Origin: an uncultured Butyrivibrio sp.
Lineage (GTDB): Bacteria > Bacillota > Clostridia > Lachnospirales > Lachnospiraceae
Length of the DNA stretch: 37,897 nucleotides
Direction of reading: 5' to 3'
Assembly: GCA_947167765.1 (NCBI GenBank)
Contig: CAMVJI010000008.1
Location: 1 to 37,897, forward strand
Position 1 is the first letter of the stretch. Every line of letters begins with the position of its first letter. Below are positions 4,061-14,653 of this stretch, piece by piece. Position numbers and translations under genes: made by a program. The notes under the pieces are model-generated. The model ran no database searches. It worked only from the letters and a program-made list of their open reading frames with translations, and was not told the DNA's origin.

Positions 4061-4097
4061 GATGAAGCACTGATCACTCACCATCAGTGCTTTCATC
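4061..4097 (-). terminator. Hairpin terminator ending the ATP synthase/lipoprotein unit
   Basis: On the minus strand, arms GATGAAAGCACTGAT and ATCAGTGCTTCATC pair over 14 positions with a one-base bulge around an 8-base loop, followed by TTTTATG. The 5' arm lies within the last codons of the lipoprotein gene and its stop codon is in the loop. The short T-run suggests incomplete termination, so some transcription may continue into the acyltransferase. Confidence 0.6.
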
Positions 4098-4625
4098 ATC
4101 AATCGTTGATATTTCATATGTACTTTCAGTTTCTACTGTAATGCCCTCACCTTCTGGAACCTGTCCATGAAGAACCTGGAGCATTATGAGAACTCTGTCG
4201 TTAGCTCTCTGATAGTACTGGCTTGCCAGCATCTCGCTGTCTGAATCAAAATCCCCGTCATAGGCCTGATGATAAAACTCATTGGCCTTGTCCATGTAGT
4301 CAGCAGCTTCTACTGCAATAGCAGATATTCCTGAAAACTCTTCAGGTATTTCGATTGCTGCCATGTTCTTGTAGGTTTCATTCATCTCATCAAGAACAAC
4401 TAAAAGCTCATCCCCTGCAGTTTCTGCGTTTGGATCAATTGAATTAATTGAACTATCATACTCTGATAGCTTGTTATAAAATTCTGTCATGCTGTCTTTA
4501 TAGCTCTGAAGCTTTGGATCAGCCTGCTTGCCACATGCTGTCATACATATGGTTAAAAGAGCTAACGCACAAGCTCTGCTTAAATACTTAATAATTCTCT
4601 TATTTGAAAACAAAACATCCACCAA
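4074..4625 (-). CDS. Putative lipoprotein of unknown function at the end of the ATP synthase operon
   Basis: A 183-residue predicted lipoprotein. A basic N-terminus and hydrophobic segment lead to a lipobox-like LLTICMTAC with the modifiable Cys near residue 31; after it the chain is acidic and mostly helical with no family I recognise. It follows atpC by eight bases, with no terminator between, and its 3' end is inside the terminator hairpin, so it is part of the ATP synthase transcript. The start is uncertain: TTG at 4625 and GTG at 4622 are adjacent, with AAGAGAAG immediately upstream, and another TTG is at 4613. Its place in an ATP synthase operon may be incidental; nothing in the sequence shows a role in the enzyme. 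Confidence 0.75.
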   Translation of the reverse strand: MVDVLFSNKRIIKYLSRACALALLTICMTACGKQADPKLQSYKDSMTEFYNKLSEYDSSINSIDPNAETAGDELLVVLDEMNETYKNMAAIEIPEEFSGISAIAVEAADYMDKANEFYHQAYDGDFDSDSEMLASQYYQRANDRVLIMLQVLHGQVPEGEGITVETESTYEISTIDDESTDGE

Positions 4626-4633
4626 CTTCTCTT

Positions 4634-5062
4634 TTAATCTTGATATTTTGATGCAGCCTTAAGTCTTGTAAGGGCTCTTGCTAGTCCCGCCTGGGATTTC
4701 TTAAACTCTTTTATAGACTGCTTCTGCATCAGGTGCTCCATAGCAAACTCATAGGCTTCCTGTGCTCTTCGTTTGTCGATGTCTTCAGGCCTTTCCACAG
4801 TATTAACAAGAACTATGCATCTGTTATCAACCGTAACCTGAACGGAGCCAATACTTACGACACCGATGATCCAATCCCCTTTGGGATTTTTGATCTTGAT
4901 GATGCCCTCGTAGATAGCAAGGATCATCTCCTCATGACCTGCAAGGATAGCCAGTTCTCCGTCATCACAGGGAACTATTATCTCAATGGCCTCATCATCA
5001 TAAAATATTCCATTAACCGAAATCACCTGCAGGTGAAAGGTCTTTGCCAGTTGCTCACTCAT
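4634..5062 (-). CDS. atpC: F1 ATP synthase epsilon subunit
   Basis: The 142-residue epsilon subunit of the central rotor stalk, which couples gamma to the c-ring and can restrain ATP hydrolysis. The N-terminal beta-sandwich (HLQVISVNGIFYDDEA, then DGELAILAGHEEMI) and the C-terminal helical hairpin from about residue 92 (VERPEDIDKRRAQEA) are both present and the length is normal. The ATG lies one base after the beta-subunit stop codon, indicating coupled translation. It is the last of the ATP synthase genes, in standard F-type order. Confidence 0.95.
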   Translation of the reverse strand: MSEQLAKTFHLQVISVNGIFYDDEAIEIIVPCDDGELAILAGHEEMILAIYEGIIKIKNPKGDWIIGVVSIGSVQVTVDNRCIVLVNTVERPEDIDKRRAQEAYEFAMEHLMQKQSIKEFKKSQAGLARALTRLKAASKYQD

Positions 5063-5063
5063 A

Positions 5064-7383
<2,320 letters not shown>

Positions 7384-7385
7384 AA

Positions 7386-9140
7386 TTAAATTCCTTCTGC
7401 GTCATTGAACTCATCAGCCAGATCAAGGATCCTTTTCTTTAGCTGATCAGGAAGTTCTCCGCTCTTTTCAAGTTCTTCACAAAGATCGCTGTGCTCAGTT
7501 TCAAAGAACTTTAAAAGTTTTGCCTTGTAGCCCTTGACCTCTTTTACAGGAACGTGGTCCATCCTGCCTGCACCAACTGTCACAAGGATTATTACCTGCT
7601 GGTGCATGGAAAGAGGATGCTCAAGAGGCTGTTTTAAAAGCTCCATAAGGATGCTTCCGTGGTTGAGCTGGTTTCTTGTGGTATCATCAAGGTCTGATGA
7701 AAACTGTGTAAATACAGCCATTTCTCTGTACTGAGCGAGGTCTACTCTTATACTTCCTGCGGCCTTCTTCATAGCCTTGGTCTGGGCAGCTGATCCTACA
7801 CGGGATACCGAAAGTCCTACATTTACAGCAGGTCTCATACCCTCAAAGAACAGATCACTTTCAAGGAAAATCTGTCCATCTGTAATAGAGATAACGTTGG
7901 TTGGAATATACGCAGAAACGTCTCCAGCCTGGGTCTCTATTATAGGAAGGGCTGTCATAGAGCCGCCTCCAAGTTCTGAAGAAAGCTTACTTGATCTCTC
8001 AAGTAGCCTTGAGTGCAGATAGAATACATCTCCAGGATATGCCTCTCTTCCAGGGCTTCTCTCAAGAAGAAGTGAAAGAGCTCTGTAGGCTACAGCGTGC
8101 TTACTAAGGTCATCATAGACAATGAGCACATCCTTGCCCTGGCGCATGAAATACTCTCCCAGGGCTGTTCCTGAATATGGTGCTATATACTGAAGTGGCG
8201 CCATGTCAGATGCTGTAGAACTGACAATTATGGTATACTTCATGGCTCTGTTCTTTTTAAGAGTCTGATAGAGCTGGGCTACAGTAGAAGCCTTCTGTCC
8301 AATAGCAACATAGATACAGATCACTCCCTTGCCTCTTTGGTTGATGATGGTGTCAAGAGCAATTGAAGTCTTACCAGTCTGTCTGTCACCAATAATGAGC
8401 TCTCTTTGGCCTCTTCCTATCGGGAACATGGTATCAATTGACAAAATACCTGTCTCCATAGGCTCGTTAACTGATTGCCTCTCAATGATGCCTGGCGCAG
8501 GTCTCTCTACCGGGCTAAATCCAGAAGCCTTGATATCACCCTGACCATCAAGAGGAGCCCCCAGAGCATCTACCACTCTTCCGATAAAAGCTTCACCAAC
8601 AGGAATTCCTGCCTCTTTATAGGTTCTTACAGCCCTACTGCCCTGTCTGATGCCGCTGTCGTTACCAAACAAGATACAGCCAACATGATCATCCCTGATA
8701 TCCTGGACCATACCCTTGGTACCGTCCTCAAACTCGATGATCTCACCGTAAAAAGCGTGGTCTATCCCCTCAATATTGGCGATTCCATCTCCTACCCAGG
8801 TTACAGTTCCAACCTCTCTATCCTTGGTGGAAAGCTCAAAGTCCTCCACCTTTTCTTTTAACATAGAGATTATCTGGCTTGGATCGATATTGCCATGTTT
8901 AGTTTGAACTTCATTAAGCTCAGTGCGAAGCTGTCTGGTTCTTCCAAAATCACTCCAGTCATACTCAAAATTGCCACATGAAACAATGAATCCGCCCTTG
9001 ACTGTCTCGTCATGAACGCACTCTATTTCAATATCTGGAGCATCAAGTTTATCAGCAAGGATTTTTCTTATCTTTTCCAGCTGATCTTCCGTAGGTGCTG
9101 TGGCAGCATAACGCAAAAGAGCCTTAAGATTCTTATCCAT
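7386..9140 (-). CDS. atpA: F1 ATP synthase alpha subunit with N-terminal delta(OSCP) C-terminal-domain fusion
   Basis: A 584-residue alpha subunit (usual length about 505). Residues 83 onward are ordinary alpha: helix [17 protein letters not shown], barrel [17 protein letters not shown]-loop GDRQTGKT at 251-258 (E. coli 169-176, an offset of 82) and the conserved C-terminal domain. Residues 1-82 are extra. They align with the last ~70 residues of delta: [19 protein letters not shown] against ALSEQQLAKISAAMEKRL of E. coli, then [16 protein letters not shown] against AGVIIRAGDMVIDGS, then [10 protein letters not shown]. The ATG at 9140 overlaps the atpF stop by eight bases (ATGGATAA), so no atpH fits between them. 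Known: delta's C-terminal domain binds subunit b and its N-terminal domain caps alpha. Inferred: the extension replaces delta as the b-to-F1 link. Confidence 0.93.
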
Positions 9141-9651: not shown

Positions 9652-9870
9652 TTATGAGAAAAGAATGATCATGATAGCAATAACGAAACCATAAATAGCT
9701 GTAGCCTCTGCAAGGGCACATCCAAGAAGAAGAAGCTTCATGATCTTGCCATCTGCCTCAGGCTGTCTAGCTACTGCATCAGTAGCTTTAGCTGTGGCAA
9801 TGCTGATACCAATACCTGCTCCAATTCCGGTGAATGCAGCAATAGCTGCTCCAAGTGCTGTTAAACTCAT
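9652..9870 (-). CDS. atpE: F0 ATP synthase c subunit (rotor ring), proton type by ligand pattern
   Basis: A 72-residue hairpin of two membrane helices joined by the polar loop ARQPEADG. The ion-carrying Glu lies in helix 2 (CALAEATAIYGF). Against the sodium-binding Ilyobacter ring, the helix-1 Gln ligand is Ile here (GAGIGIS for GPGVGQG) and the Ser after the Glu is Ala, so two sodium ligands are missing; this points to protons as the coupling ion. The ATG has the best ribosome site of the operon (AAGGAGG), which fits the high copy number of c in the complex. The predicted ion specificity is an inference from residues only. Confidence 0.95.
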   Translation of the reverse strand: MSLTALGAAIAAFTGIGAGIGISIATAKATDAVARQPEADGKIMKLLLLGCALAEATAIYGFVIAIMIILFS

Positions 9871-9894: not shown

Positions 9895-10578
9895 TTATTC
9901 CACTGCTTCTTTTATGTAAAGCGATGTCAAAAAGCAAAATACATAAGCCTGAATGGCACCGTCAAAAAGATCAAAGTATAAAGAAAGTGCTGCAGGAAGG
10001 ATCACAGGAACCACGTGCTTTAATAGCTCCATGATAACTGTCGCTCCAAGGATATTACCAAATAGTCGCATGCACAATGAAAGAGGCCTTATGACCAGTT
10101 CAAGTACATTCATTGGTGCAACAACAGGCATGGGCTCTGCAAAGCCTTTAAGCCACTTCTTGGGACCTTTTTTAACAAGGCCAGCAGCTTCCACCAGGAC
10201 AATGCTCATAACAGAAAGAGCTATGGTCACATTAAGGTCCATGGTTGGCGGCGTAAATCCAAACAGCCCCACCATATTAGAAAGGCCAATGAAGATCAGC
10301 ACTGTTACGATATAGTCAGTATAACCAGCAGCTTCCTCTCCAAGCATCCCTGATACAGCGCCTCTTAGGAACAACACAGCTGACTCCAGCGCAGCCTGAC
10401 GCTTCGAAATATTATGAACTTTCAGATCATGGGTAAGAAATAGAATGAGGGCAATAACTACAGCCATAAATATCCAAGTGACAACTACGGAATGATAGAT
10501 GTCAAAAAAGCCGTCCCCAAAAGGCACATGGATTAGAGTCTTGTCCTCCATTAAGAGCTCTGTTAGTAATTCTTTCAT
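9895..10578 (-). CDS. atpB: F0 ATP synthase a subunit
   Basis: The 227-residue a subunit that forms the ion half-channels next to the c-ring. Five or six hydrophobic helices are visible, and the essential Arg is in RPLSLCMRLFGNILG, the most conserved stretch of the family. It is the first gene of the operon; no atpI precedes it. The ATG has GGGGGA upstream, and a good sigma-70-type promoter lies about 30 bases before it. Length is near the lower end for the family, as in other Clostridia. Confidence 0.95.
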   Translation of the reverse strand: MKELLTELLMEDKTLIHVPFGDGFFDIYHSVVVTWIFMAVVIALILFLTHDLKVHNISKRQAALESAVLFLRGAVSGMLGEEAAGYTDYIVTVLIFIGLSNMVGLFGFTPPTMDLNVTIALSVMSIVLVEAAGLVKKGPKKWLKGFAEPMPVVAPMNVLELVIRPLSLCMRLFGNILGATVIMELLKHVVPVILPAALSLYFDLFDGAIQAYVFCFLTSLYIKEAVE

Positions 10579-10678: not shown

Positions 10679-13600
10679 TTAATCTTTTTTGTCAGTTTCT
10701 ACTTGCTCTTTAGAATTTTTCTCTTTTCCAGGACCTTTATCATCTGTCTGATCCTTGGAATCATCGTAGAACAGCTGCTCTTTACTTTCAATCTTAGCGG
10801 AAACTTTACTTACCACTTTCTTAAATATCTTTGGTACGTGTCTGCTGTTCTTGGTAAGAAGAATAACTACTACAGCTATAAGTGCAACCACTAGCAGGAA
10901 TACTATAACAAATAAAACTGCCAGCTTGCTGGTGGCACCAGATGCATCACCCACATCAAGAGAAAGCGTAAACTTATTGCCTTCAATATCATAAGTTGAG
11001 TATTTGCCCATGGTTCCTGTGGGAGTTAAAAGAACCTTCTCTCCATTTTTTATCTGATATAACCTGTATTCATCTCCAAGGTATCCCTTTAACAGATCGA
11101 TTGCAACAGTAGCTTCACTTATTGGTCTGAATCGTATCTGGTGTACTTTTTGTCCATCATCAGGTATCGTTACTTCTAATGTTTCATAATCTTTTAAAGT
11201 CTCAGCCTTGCCCTGAACAAAATTAACAGTTCTGACTACATCAAGAGCATCATCTTCTTTGAACATTCCATCTACTAAAAGCTCTGACTGCATCAGGTCA
11301 TCTGAAACATTGTATTCAGAAAGCGTTGTTCTATATCTCTTATAGGTGGCTGTAACAACTTTATCAGTAGTAATGTCAGTAAGTTCCGGAGTATCCCATG
11401 CTGTATAGAATCCATCCTTATTCTTAAGTCCAGGGTACTCGTTTGCTTCAATGCTCTCACCATAGTTTTTCTTTACCTTGGCAATGATCTGCCTGCCGTC
11501 CTCAAGATCTTCATCTTCAAGTACAAAGGTAACCATGAGCTTTTTAAAGTCATTTGGAACATCAGAGTACTCGACGGTATCAAGTTTTACTGTCTTTTCC
11601 TCTACCTGTCCCTCATCCTCTTCACTGAGCTCATCTTCTACAGTTATTACCTTTTCAGCTTCGAAAAGATTGCCCTGTAAGACTTTGTCATATTCAACAG
11701 GCTCTGCCTTCTTGGAATAACTGATCTTGTCGATTCCAGCCAGATCATCACTTACAAAGAAGTTGTTTCTTATCTCTGCGCCTTCTTCAACATTACCTGC
11801 AATAGCACCAAATCTTGACTCTGCTCCTTCGATAGAAACTAGTGCAAGACAGTTTCTTATGTTATTGCCATCGCCTGCAATACCGCCAACGTAATTAGCT
11901 CCCTCAAGTATTCCTTTGGAAAAAGAGCTAACGACATAAGAATATGATGCTCCTGTTACGCCGCCTACGTAGTCGCCTGAAGATGATTTAATATTGGAGT
12001 AATTGCTGCATCCAAGGATCGTGCCCATCTCCTGAAGACCGCAAACACCAGCTGCGTAGTTCTTTTCACCGACTGCTTCTGCGTAGTTTTTATTGCTACG
12101 AAGAACGCACTTGGTGATAAAGGAAGAATTGAGTTTGGAATCCTTGATACCTGTAAGATCTGACTCCTTGTCGTAGTCATACTCAATAGCCATGGTTCCA
12201 GCTATTCCGGCAGTATCAATATCTCCCTCTACTCTTCCAAAGTTTTGGCACCCTTCTATTGTGGCATCAGTACTGGTAGAAGCTTCTTCAAGCGAAACAT
12301 CTGAATAAGCCTGGGTGTAATCCATCTCAAGTACGCCGTCAATTGCATCAGTGTACAGCATCATGATGTTGTTGAACTGATCTGCTATAGACTGCATGTC
12401 ATCAACAAGAACCCCTGTAGCGTTATTGACCTCAAGGTTAAGAGATCCAAAGTTGTCGTTCATACCAGCCATGTTTGATGCAAGGCTTGCAGTATGATCC
12501 TTATATTCTGCACTAAACTGCGGAAACGCAATATCTTCTCTGCCTGCAACATTCCTTACTATGGACTTGGTCTGCTTACCAGCTTCTGACAGATGTGCAG
12601 TTGCAGATTCCAATGAATCCATAGATTTAACAGCATCAGCCCTGGCAGCGTCAGTCATCTCATCAAGGTGTGCTGAAGTGAGGGAAGCAATTGTCATGCC
12701 TGCCTGTTGAAGGTCTTCTGAGTATGAATTATTGCCACCACTACGACTTGTGTAGTGATCCTGTGCAAACTTATCTGCTTTTGACTGAGCATCACTTTTT
12801 GCCTTGCTGTCCCAATCCTGATCTTTAGAATATCTTGAATCTGATGAATCAGAAACAGGGAAGTTTCCATAAGGATCATTTGTGTGTACCCAGGTTCCAT
12901 CTTTTCTTAAACCATAGCAATAATACCAGTCCTCATACTGATATTGTTCATCCCTGCTTCTCCAAAGATGATCATCAAAATCTGAATCAGAATATAAGCT
13001 CGTTGTTGTAAGCAAAGTGTTTCCATTACCATCCTGGTAATCAAGATCCGAGCCGCTAATAAGGGATCTGTTTTTCTGGTAGATGTAATGATTATAGTAA
13101 GGCTGATAAGAGTAATTATATAGTTCGGAATATTGACTTGCAGCGCTCTCTATTGTTGCTTTTGCGCTTTCATAGTCAGTCTTTTCACTATCAGAAAGAT
13201 AGTTATCCAGATTCAGGTCCTTAACAGCATTCTCAAAACTCTCGCCTGAGCTTTTTGTATCAGAAGCAGCATAGGTAAGCTGATCCAGTACTCCATCATC
13301 TTTTGAAGTCTCATCAAGGATATAGTCAACTCTTGAAAAAGCCTCAGAAGTAGCGCTTGATACGCCATTGGCAAAATCAACAGTTCCAGCAGAAAGGAAT
13401 CTTACATCCTCAATGGCACCAGAGGTAAACTGCTGGATTGCAGACAGCCTGTTTGTTATAACATCAGACTGATTCTTGGCATCGCCTAAAGTTGCAGAAA
13501 CAGTATCGTGGAGCTTACTAATGGATTCTGTAAGCTGATAAGCAATGTCAGAGCTAAGATCAACAGTAATGTATGGCTCAGCCTGTCCAACAATACCACC

Positions 13601-14653
13601 TACATCCTTTCTTCCAAGTACTTTGCCGTTGTTGGTGCAGTTAACAACATACCCGGACTGTCTTCCCACAATGCCTCCGATGTTGTAGCCTACATGCTCG
13701 TAGCCCACGTTGCCCATATTAAGGCACCTTGAAATGATGCCCAGGGAATTACCTGCAATACCGCCAACATCTGTGGCTGTTGCATCTTCATTAGCTTCCT
13801 CTGAAGTACTGTCTACATTCTTAATAAGATTGATGACCTTATTAAGATTGGTCATAGAGTCAATGGTTATCTGGGTATCAACATTAGTTGTGTTTACCAG
13901 AGAATCATTTCTGCAGCGGCTAATATCACCTTCATTGTATCCAGCAACACCACCAACAAAATGAATACCTTTTACATATCCACTGACATTGCAATCCTCA
14001 ATTATTCCAGTGAAATGGTTATAGGAAGTAATTCCGCCAACGTAGTCATTGGATGATATAACTCCCTTGAAACTGCAGTTCTTTATATAGCCATGGTTTT
14101 CACCGCAAAGTCCACCTACTCTTATCTGCTCTCCAGAAGGAATGATGGTTCCAGTTACATTTAAGTTGGCGATAACTCCCGTCTTTTGAACGTCAGCAAA
14201 AAGGCCTACATGAGATAAGCCATCAGATACGTTGTACTCAGAAATAGTATGTCCCTGTCCGTCAAATACTCCTCCGAAGGATGGTACGTAGTCAAAGTTT
14301 TTACTAAGAAGAGAAATATCCTGTGTAAGGATAACTCTTTTATTCACTGACCATGTATCAAGCTTGCAGTTATTTGCAAAAGAAAGGAAATCATCGACGC
14401 TGCTTATATAGATATCTTCAAGTTCTTCTGGAATAAGAGCTTCAATCGCTTCTTCTATATCAGCATCTACATTCTCATCATCTTCATAAAGATCAGTCTG
14501 GGTGGCAGTTGATAAAAGCTCAACTTCTGACCTTGGATCTTTTTCCTGATCTTCCTTACCTGTTTCCTCTTCTTTTTCAGCAAGAACTGTAAGGGGAGCG
14601 CTTGTACATACAAGAGCAAATATTGTAAGAAGGGCAAGTATTCTCTTTTTCAT
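10679..14653 (-). CDS. Large secreted, membrane-anchored GLUG-repeat protein
   Basis: A 1324-residue envelope protein. It has a signal peptide (about 1-25), then blocks of GLUG-type repeats (GGVAGYNEGDISRCRN, GGIAGNSLGIISRCLN, GGIVGRQSGYVVNCTN) likely forming a beta-solenoid. A long, mainly helical insert (about 370-800) includes a Tyr/Asp/Ser-rich stretch, then a second GLUG block (GGVTGASYSYVVSSF, GGIAGDGNNIRNC), a beta-rich region, a membrane helix near 1243-1266 and a basic, then acidic, cytoplasmic tail. Its ATG overlaps the stop of the MMPL transporter by one base (TAATG), so the two are translationally coupled and probably work together. GLUG repeats occur in bacterial surface and adhesin-like proteins; no enzymatic motif is visible. 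The substrate or ligand is unknown. Confidence 0.8.
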   Translation of the reverse strand: MKKRILALLTIFALVCTSAPLTVLAEKEEETGKEDQEKDPRSEVELLSTATQTDLYEDDENVDADIEEAIEALIPEELEDIYISSVDDFLSFANNCKLDTWSVNKRVILTQDISLLSKNFDYVPSFGGVFDGQGHTISEYNVSDGLSHVGLFADVQKTGVIANLNVTGTIIPSGEQIRVGGLCGENHGYIKNCSFKGVISSNDYVGGITSYNHFTGIIEDCNVSGYVKGIHFVGGVAGYNEGDISRCRNDSLVNTTNVDTQITIDSMTNLNKVINLIKNVDSTSEEANEDATATDVGGIAGNSLGIISRCLNMGNVGYEHVGYNIGGIVGRQSGYVVNCTNNGKVLGRKDVGGIVGQAEPYITVDLSSDIAYQLTESISKLHDTVSATLGDAKNQSDVITNRLSAIQQFTSGAIEDVRFLSAGTVDFANGVSSATSEAFSRVDYILDETSKDDGVLDQLTYAASDTKSSGESFENAVKDLNLDNYLSDSEKTDYESAKATIESAASQYSELYNYSYQPYYNHYIYQKNRSLISGSDLDYQDGNGNTLLTTTSLYSDSDFDDHLWRSRDEQYQYEDWYYCYGLRKDGTWVHTNDPYGNFPVSDSSDSRYSKDQDWDSKAKSDAQSKADKFAQDHYTSRSGGNNSYSEDLQQAGMTIASLTSAHLDEMTDAARADAVKSMDSLESATAHLSEAGKQTKSIVRNVAGREDIAFPQFSAEYKDHTASLASNMAGMNDNFGSLNLEVNNATGVLVDDMQSIADQFNNIMMLYTDAIDGVLEMDYTQAYSDVSLEEASTSTDATIEGCQNFGRVEGDIDTAGIAGTMAIEYDYDKESDLTGIKDSKLNSSFITKCVLRSNKNYAEAVGEKNYAAGVCGLQEMGTILGCSNYSNIKSSSGDYVGGVTGASYSYVVSSFSKGILEGANYVGGIAGDGNNIRNCLALVSIEGAESRFGAIAGNVEEGAEIRNNFFVSDDLAGIDKISYSKKAEPVEYDKVLQGNLFEAEKVITVEDELSEEDEGQVEEKTVKLDTVEYSDVPNDFKKLMVTFVLEDEDLEDGRQIIAKVKKNYGESIEANEYPGLKNKDGFYTAWDTPELTDITTDKVVTATYKRYRTTLSEYNVSDDLMQSELLVDGMFKEDDALDVVRTVNFVQGKAETLKDYETLEVTIPDDGQKVHQIRFRPISEATVAIDLLKGYLGDEYRLYQIKNGEKVLLTPTGTMGKYSTYDIEGNKFTLSLDVGDASGATSKLAVLFVIVFLLVVALIAVVVILLTKNSRHVPKIFKKVVSKVSAKIESKEQLFYDDSKDQTDDKGPGKEKNSKEQVETDKKD

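Follow-up and report, generated by a model that had tools for sequence, protein, structure and literature searches.

The window analysed here, a stretch of 37,897 nucleotides from an uncultured Butyrivibrio sp. (contig CAMVJI010000008.1), carries on its minus strand a complete F1Fo ATP synthase operon (atpB, atpE, atpF, atpA, atpG, atpD, atpC), in which the C-terminal domain (CTD) of subunit delta is joined in frame to the N-terminus of subunit alpha. The operon encodes its products in the order a-c-b-[deltaCTD-alpha]-gamma-beta-epsilon.

A delta domain on the alpha subunit

Residues 13-74 of the fused alpha (P0001) match positions 110-171 of the 172-position Pfam OSCP profile PF00213 (E 3.9e-5, 24.2 bits against a cut-off of 22.3), identifying a delta/OSCP C-terminal domain that is predicted to bind subunit b. 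The match is limited to these profile positions, and the N-terminal docking domain (NTD) of delta was not found in P0001. The alpha model TIGR00962 matches from residue 86 onward with 752.4 bits (equivalog cut-off 484.45), leaving about 83 residues ahead of normal alpha, whose domains PF02874, PF00006 and PF00306 are all found by Pfam. An independent hidden Markov model (HMM), built from 41 separate deltas of relatives, matches the extension as well (P0001 residues 3-79, open frame 35-111, profile positions 106-182; E about 6e-6). AlphaFold gives residues 1-70 a beta-alpha-beta-beta-beta-alpha fold, with predicted local distance difference test (pLDDT) values of 71-85 by blocks; the model is of low quality in the alpha core (mean pLDDT 67.7, template modelling score about 0.43 to solved alphas), and the N-terminal domain alone was used. 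The first-pass annotation had read the extension as the CTD of delta, and this is borne out by both profiles, the Pfam match lying above its cut-off. The eight-base overlap between the atpF stop and the fusion start, which it had also reported, is present, and the fusion ATG is preceded by a Shine-Dalgarno-like site (duplex energy -6.6). Its further conclusion, that the delta NTD is not encoded in the operon, holds too: 247 codons separate the b stop from the P-loop of alpha in the window, compared to 332-409 in 61 unfused operons, so that there is no room for an NTD between atpF and atpA, and the NTD model described below finds no match.

Chance similarity can be ruled out by the independent HMM, profile and PDB matches, and an assembly chimera by the recurrence of the fused match in 47 of 51 genomes of the genus. 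Subunit b is plain: no OSCP match was found in its 164 residues at E <= 0.1 in the Pfam profile scan, and its C-terminal tail, LYDKFI, resembles those of many relatives, with no delta joined.

Table 1. Features of the atp operon in the window.
Feature	Position	Strand	Basis
atpB, a subunit	9895..10578	-	family model match
atpE, c subunit	9652..9870	-	family model match
atpF, subunit b, 164 aa	9133..9627	-	PF00430
atpF stop/fusion start overlap, 8 bases	9133..9140	-	stop 9133-9135, ATG 9138-9140
Fused alpha (P0001), 584 aa	7389-9140, ATG at 9140	-	open frame
Delta/OSCP C-terminal (predicted b-binding) domain, P0001 residues 1-79	8904..9140	-	Pfam OSCP 13-74; predicted fold
Classical N-terminal (delta-docking) helix of the alpha subunit, P0001 residues 85-101	8838..8888	-	alignment to ordinary alpha N-termini
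Alpha proper, including stop codon	7386..8885	-	TIGR00962, residues 86-579, 752 bits
atpG, gamma subunit	6460..7383	-	profile matches
atpD, beta subunit	5064..6455	-	family model match
atpC, epsilon subunit, both domains kept	4634..5062	-	Pfam

Upstream of the operon and on the same strand lies a gene for a 1324-aa protein with a GLUG motif (10679-14653), which, judged by eye, has a signal peptide and a C-terminal membrane helix. Just downstream of atpC follows a small lipoprotein-like gene (4074-4625) with a sub-threshold DUF7018 match.

Delta subunits and fusion architectures among relatives

In the window's own assembly, which is 79% complete, the fusion is the sole OSCP match. The first-pass description of an ATP synthase without a delta gene is therefore correct for this operon and this assembly, but probably untrue of the organism: contig C86 of the same genome (G000, locus L174) carries beta, epsilon and the last 70 gamma profile positions of a second, ordinary F-ATPase, which ends at the contig end, so that its separate delta probably lies in the assembly gap. 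On account of this remnant, a complete lack of delta in the organism was rejected. Across the 51 genomes of the genus, the fused match occurs in 47 (two of them in short frames) and a full-length delta, in addition or instead, in 40; all 28 genomes that are at least 90% complete have the fusion, and 25 of them a separate delta too. In one relative that was read closely (L070), the full-length delta sits in its own a-c-b-delta-alpha operon. Seven genomes, all CTD-only and 97-99% complete, contain one fused alpha, one gamma and one OSCP match each; three belong to the genus (G404, G437, G432) and four come from elsewhere in the family (G043, G062, G130, G079). A second alpha gene was not found in these seven, and a delta-NTD profile returned nothing better than E 0.2 there, the values in six positive-control genomes being 1e-31 to 1e-37. 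Since seven near-complete relatives have no other delta, the fused enzyme, judged by gene content, is one that works without a separate delta.

A search of 397 genomes of the family, in which locus stretches were fetched and classed with the delta HMM (the classed loci are not a census), revealed that operons of one type come in three architectures. Delta is either separate, often with 173 aa, or fused to alpha in full length (26 loci, one per genome) or as the CTD alone (82 loci, of which 39 belong to the window's genus and 43 do not). Where a genome had duplicate loci, these were counted once, and neither fusion class includes L085 (broken alpha frame; 257 codons) or L116, in which the P-loop motif was not matched. 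The distance from b stop to P-loop is bimodal, with 236-272 codons in the 82 CTD-only loci and 330-346 in the 26 full fusions; L124 and L165 are CTD-only by this distance, though the length of their open frames resembles the full-length type. An NTD HMM, built from members of the full-fusion and separate-delta groups, matches at E 1e-3 none of the 82 CTD-only loci (the window's included), all 26 full fusions, 22/22 separate deltas and 31/39 ordinary second-type operons. One locus with a 787-aa alpha frame and no recognisable b gene upstream (L151, G068) was left unclassed and counts as a 27th full locus in the internal-start test alone. If unprocessed, the full-length fusions (26 loci among L036-L061 and L123-L170) would place three complete deltas on each F1.

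Among named genomes, 187 relatives were found and 80 loci kept, of which 79 could be classed, by open frame alone, as CTD-only (61) or full (18). All 55 classed Butyrivibrio loci fall into the CTD-only bin, among them L256, whose frame is broken; the seven Pseudobutyrivibrio loci are without exception full-length (L267, L274, L275, L280, L285-L287). L085 and L256 appear to be the same place in Butyrivibrio sp. VCD2006, where the alpha frame is broken within the barrel into frames of 177 and 430 aa, either by a sequencing error or because the gene is broken. Outside the family, at least 11 genomes from two families of the same order contain uninterrupted matches (295 genomes; matches not individually inspected), as do 21 genomes of 12 families elsewhere in the class (291 genomes). 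Ten of these 21 were read. Their 239-300 codons leave space for the CTD alone in every case, and the longest one has an N-terminal tail that is repeated; the delta HMM matches 7/10 at E 1 or better. At locus L295, the delta domain of the fused alpha is preceded by a unit of roughly 20 residues (MNEMSDNEFRSRVASATNG-like), present in about three tandem copies.

On an alpha tree the CTD-only label changes 13 times, at least 5 of the changes being forced by well-supported branches, and CTD-only loci form a single group in 0/200 bootstrap trees. The tree holds 94 of 168 rows (dropped were 14 far or unclassed, 27 of the genus and 33 Na-type) and comes from a careful run whose bootstrap is not fully settled. 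The distinction between fused and separate delta changes 3 times, which does not settle a single origin of the fusion. Repeated loss is a likelier account of the NTD switching than gain, with recombination as another possible route. Probably, adjacent atpH and atpA genes fused, whereupon the docking domain would have become dispensable and been lost repeatedly.

In ordinary F1, the N-terminal helices of alpha dock delta. The ratio of distances in the docking helix to those in the alpha barrel is 1.71 in CTD-only and 1.75 in full fusions, compared to 0.97 and 0.90 in two unfused groups, and the bootstrap ranges of fused and unfused groups do not overlap. As the docking helix is less constrained in fused alphas, docking was apparently superseded by the tether as soon as fusion took place. 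The full-length fusions keep a docking domain despite this relaxed helix. The earlier proposal that a covalent tether substitutes for the docking domain thus gains plausibility, also from the seven relatives without another delta. An in-frame start with a Shine-Dalgarno sequence near the classical alpha start is found in 22/82 CTD-only loci, 9/27 full fusions, 148/545 control windows and 48/61 unfused alphas; starts inside the gene, from which plain alpha could be made, thus show no excess in fused loci over control windows, with no sign of one being conserved. By this measure, all three alphas of a complex should bear the delta domain, unless it is later cut off.

Engineered and natural counterparts

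The first-pass annotation knew of no description of such an arrangement, but the kind is already known, since natural cases have been named and a fusion has been built (Ueno et al., 2025, PMC12229609; statements from this and the other cited papers refer to excerpts of them). Ueno et al. argued that more than one stalk is prevented by the delta NTD, which sits on the threefold axis; they deleted this domain in the Bacillus PS3 enzyme and fused the remainder to alpha (PDB 9jc1). Particles with 0, 1, 2 and 3 stalks made up 15, 51, 26 and 8%, with an a-subunit on each stalk; H+/ATP was 5.8, and the proton-motive force (pmf) at equilibrium was 68 vs 133 mV (PMC12229609).

P0001 residues 9-566 align with residues 7-562 of 9jc1 chain I (E 1e-187), and the family profile spans the 9jc1 junction with a one-residue gap; among the matches listed, ordinary alphas align with P0001 from residue 79 or later. 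Foldseek with the AlphaFold model ranks 9jc1 first, a ranking that is probably mostly sequence-driven. The engineered enzyme has the delta CTD attached via a short linker to the N-terminus of alpha, a deleted NTD and no separate delta. P0001 likewise carries the CTD in frame at the alpha N-terminus and lacks the NTD, while the dispensability of a separate delta is seen in the seven near-complete relatives, the second operon of G000 being cut by the contig end. In contrast to the natural fusion, however, the engineered enzyme was designed, has a truncated epsilon, and is characterized by measured stalk number and H+/ATP, whereas the natural one is known from its genes.

N-ATPase operons are not known to contain a separate delta gene. 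The window's operon is not of this type: the N-ATPase alpha model TIGR03324 scores 598 bits against a cut-off of 750.5, and the gene order differs from beta-epsilon-a-c-b-alpha-gamma (Liu et al., 2017, PMC5709465). Liu et al. also report a b-delta fusion in Gordonia and some Mycobacterium, in which delta is joined to a neighbouring subunit as well, but to b, whereas the window has delta on alpha, a subunit present three times in each complex. The mycobacterial type is excluded here by the length of b, its PF00430 match and the lack of an OSCP match. A Clostridia transcription unit without delta, listed in the same paper, is possibly the same operon type at the gene level; the excerpts mention no fused delta domain (PMC5709465). 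Natural NTD-less delta-alpha fusions named by Ueno et al. are that of Acidaminococcus fermentans, whose enzyme is proposed to be multi-stalk, and UniProt G4Q3K6 and A0A1I2C5T3 (PMC12229609); by description they share the domain architecture of the window's fusion. No other paper on a natural delta-alpha fusion was found among those listed from the openly licensed literature, which is weak evidence. Full-length fusions and a second, ordinary F-ATPase are seen here and are not mentioned in the excerpts of Ueno et al. The present analysis adds to this how widely the fusion is spread across Clostridia, its full-length form, the repeated loss of the docking domain and the relaxation of the docking helix, as well as genomes in which the fused enzyme is the sole F-ATPase found.

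Stalk number, ion coupling and significance

With the NTD no longer on the threefold axis, a b2 dimer and the a-subunit that goes with it could attach to every one of the three alpha tips, and one to three peripheral stalks per enzyme would be possible. More a-subunits per c-ring would raise H+/ATP and allow ATP to be made at low pmf, as in the engineered fusion. The competition of three delta domains for one b pair, which the first-pass annotation had raised as a puzzle, is probably the reverse of what happens, as the engineered domains could each bind their own b2 and a-subunit. Given the same geometry, several stalks are likely in the natural enzyme as well. The fusion itself is read directly from the genes, and the number of stalks is what we infer from the engineered counterpart. 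It thus appears rather probable that the operon encodes a complete F1Fo in which each alpha has its own b-binding delta domain, and hence a naturally occurring ATP synthase for low pmf, probably with several stalks.

The c subunit of a relative's ordinary operon has acidic and hydroxyl residues at putative Na+ positions, which are presumably Na+ ligands and are absent from the c subunit of the fused operon. The second, ordinary ATP synthase that usually accompanies the fused one in Butyrivibrio is, by these residues, probably Na+-driven. Such a pair, with an H+ enzyme of low threshold next to one driven by Na+, would suit a weak gradient. In fermenters, F-ATPases frequently serve as pumps. The fused enzyme might itself be mainly an ATP-driven pump that moves more protons per ATP at low gradient, which is compatible with several stalks and with an epsilon that has both domains. 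This direction of operation is nevertheless doubtful, although it deserves serious consideration: rumen butyrivibrios possess the ion pumps Ech and Rnf (PMC4478896, PMC11026938), which charge the membrane and make ATP synthesis plausible, and membranes of Pseudobutyrivibrio ruminis, from a genus with the full-length fusion by open frame, reportedly have H+- and Na+-dependent ATP synthase activities (PMC11026938, citing Schoelmerich 2020). The same review, citing the same work, assigns one H+ and one Na+ ATP synthase to rumen butyrivibrios.

Concerning stalk number, the enzyme might have a single stalk and two idle delta domains, either because the supply of a and b is limited or because the native complex cannot accommodate a second stalk; the tether would then simply stand in for the docking domain. 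Several points weigh in this direction and against multiple stalks. Single-stalk particles predominated on the grid even for the engineered enzyme, whose activity was lower (PMC12229609); a stalk count for any natural fusion was not found in the openly licensed literature. Full-length delta-alpha fusions are common too, and their three docking domains cannot share one axis, so that fusion alone need not mean many stalks. They are kept in many relatives, and faster decay of their NTD was not found (divergence 0.614 vs 0.626 in separate deltas), which makes fusion without multiple stalks seem viable. The docking helix is equally relaxed in full and CTD-only fusions and hence does not track NTD loss. 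A comparison of the Shine-Dalgarno sequence of atpB, meant to gauge whether more a-subunit is made, gave medians of -6.7 to -8.0 in fused and -4.8 in unfused loci (naive p 0.006) but had to be set aside, as the rows are related and several of the unfused starts seem to be wrongly assigned. However, NTD removal and fusion sufficed for extra stalks in the engineered, collinear enzyme, and a neutral tether alone leaves the many losses of the NTD unexplained; a single stalk is therefore considered rather unlikely.

It is quite improbable that most alphas lack the extension, through an internal start or proteolysis, and that one long alpha per F1 serves as delta: this would restore the classical one-delta stoichiometry, but fused loci show no excess of internal starts and the fusion-only genomes no second alpha gene. 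Hardly credible is a complex completed by a delta from elsewhere, e.g., from the second F-ATPase operon, or by a split NTD, since the seven near-complete genomes encode the fused enzyme alone and the separate delta of L070 belongs to its own gene order, even though 40 of the 51 genus genomes encode a full-length delta.

Taken as a whole, the multi-stalk account is somewhat better than an even bet: a natural enzyme with up to three b2 and three a-subunits per c-ring and a high H+/ATP, present in Butyrivibrio and many Clostridia, usually beside a Na+ enzyme in Butyrivibrio, and evolved repeatedly by fusion followed by NTD loss. Nature may thus already be running multi-stalk machines like the one engineered in 2025. 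At the level of annotation, the fusion may account for some cases of 'missing delta' in Clostridia. The series from separate delta through full-length to CTD-only fusion spans related genera of which some members are in culture, and it renders the question of the engineering study testable in nature, namely whether NTD loss alters stalk number and H+/ATP. It had been assumed that there is one a-subunit and one stalk, which left the c-ring as the sole determinant of what ATP costs in ions. Should the natural fusions carry several stalks, there would be a second evolutionary dial for this cost, in common fermenters of the rumen and gut.
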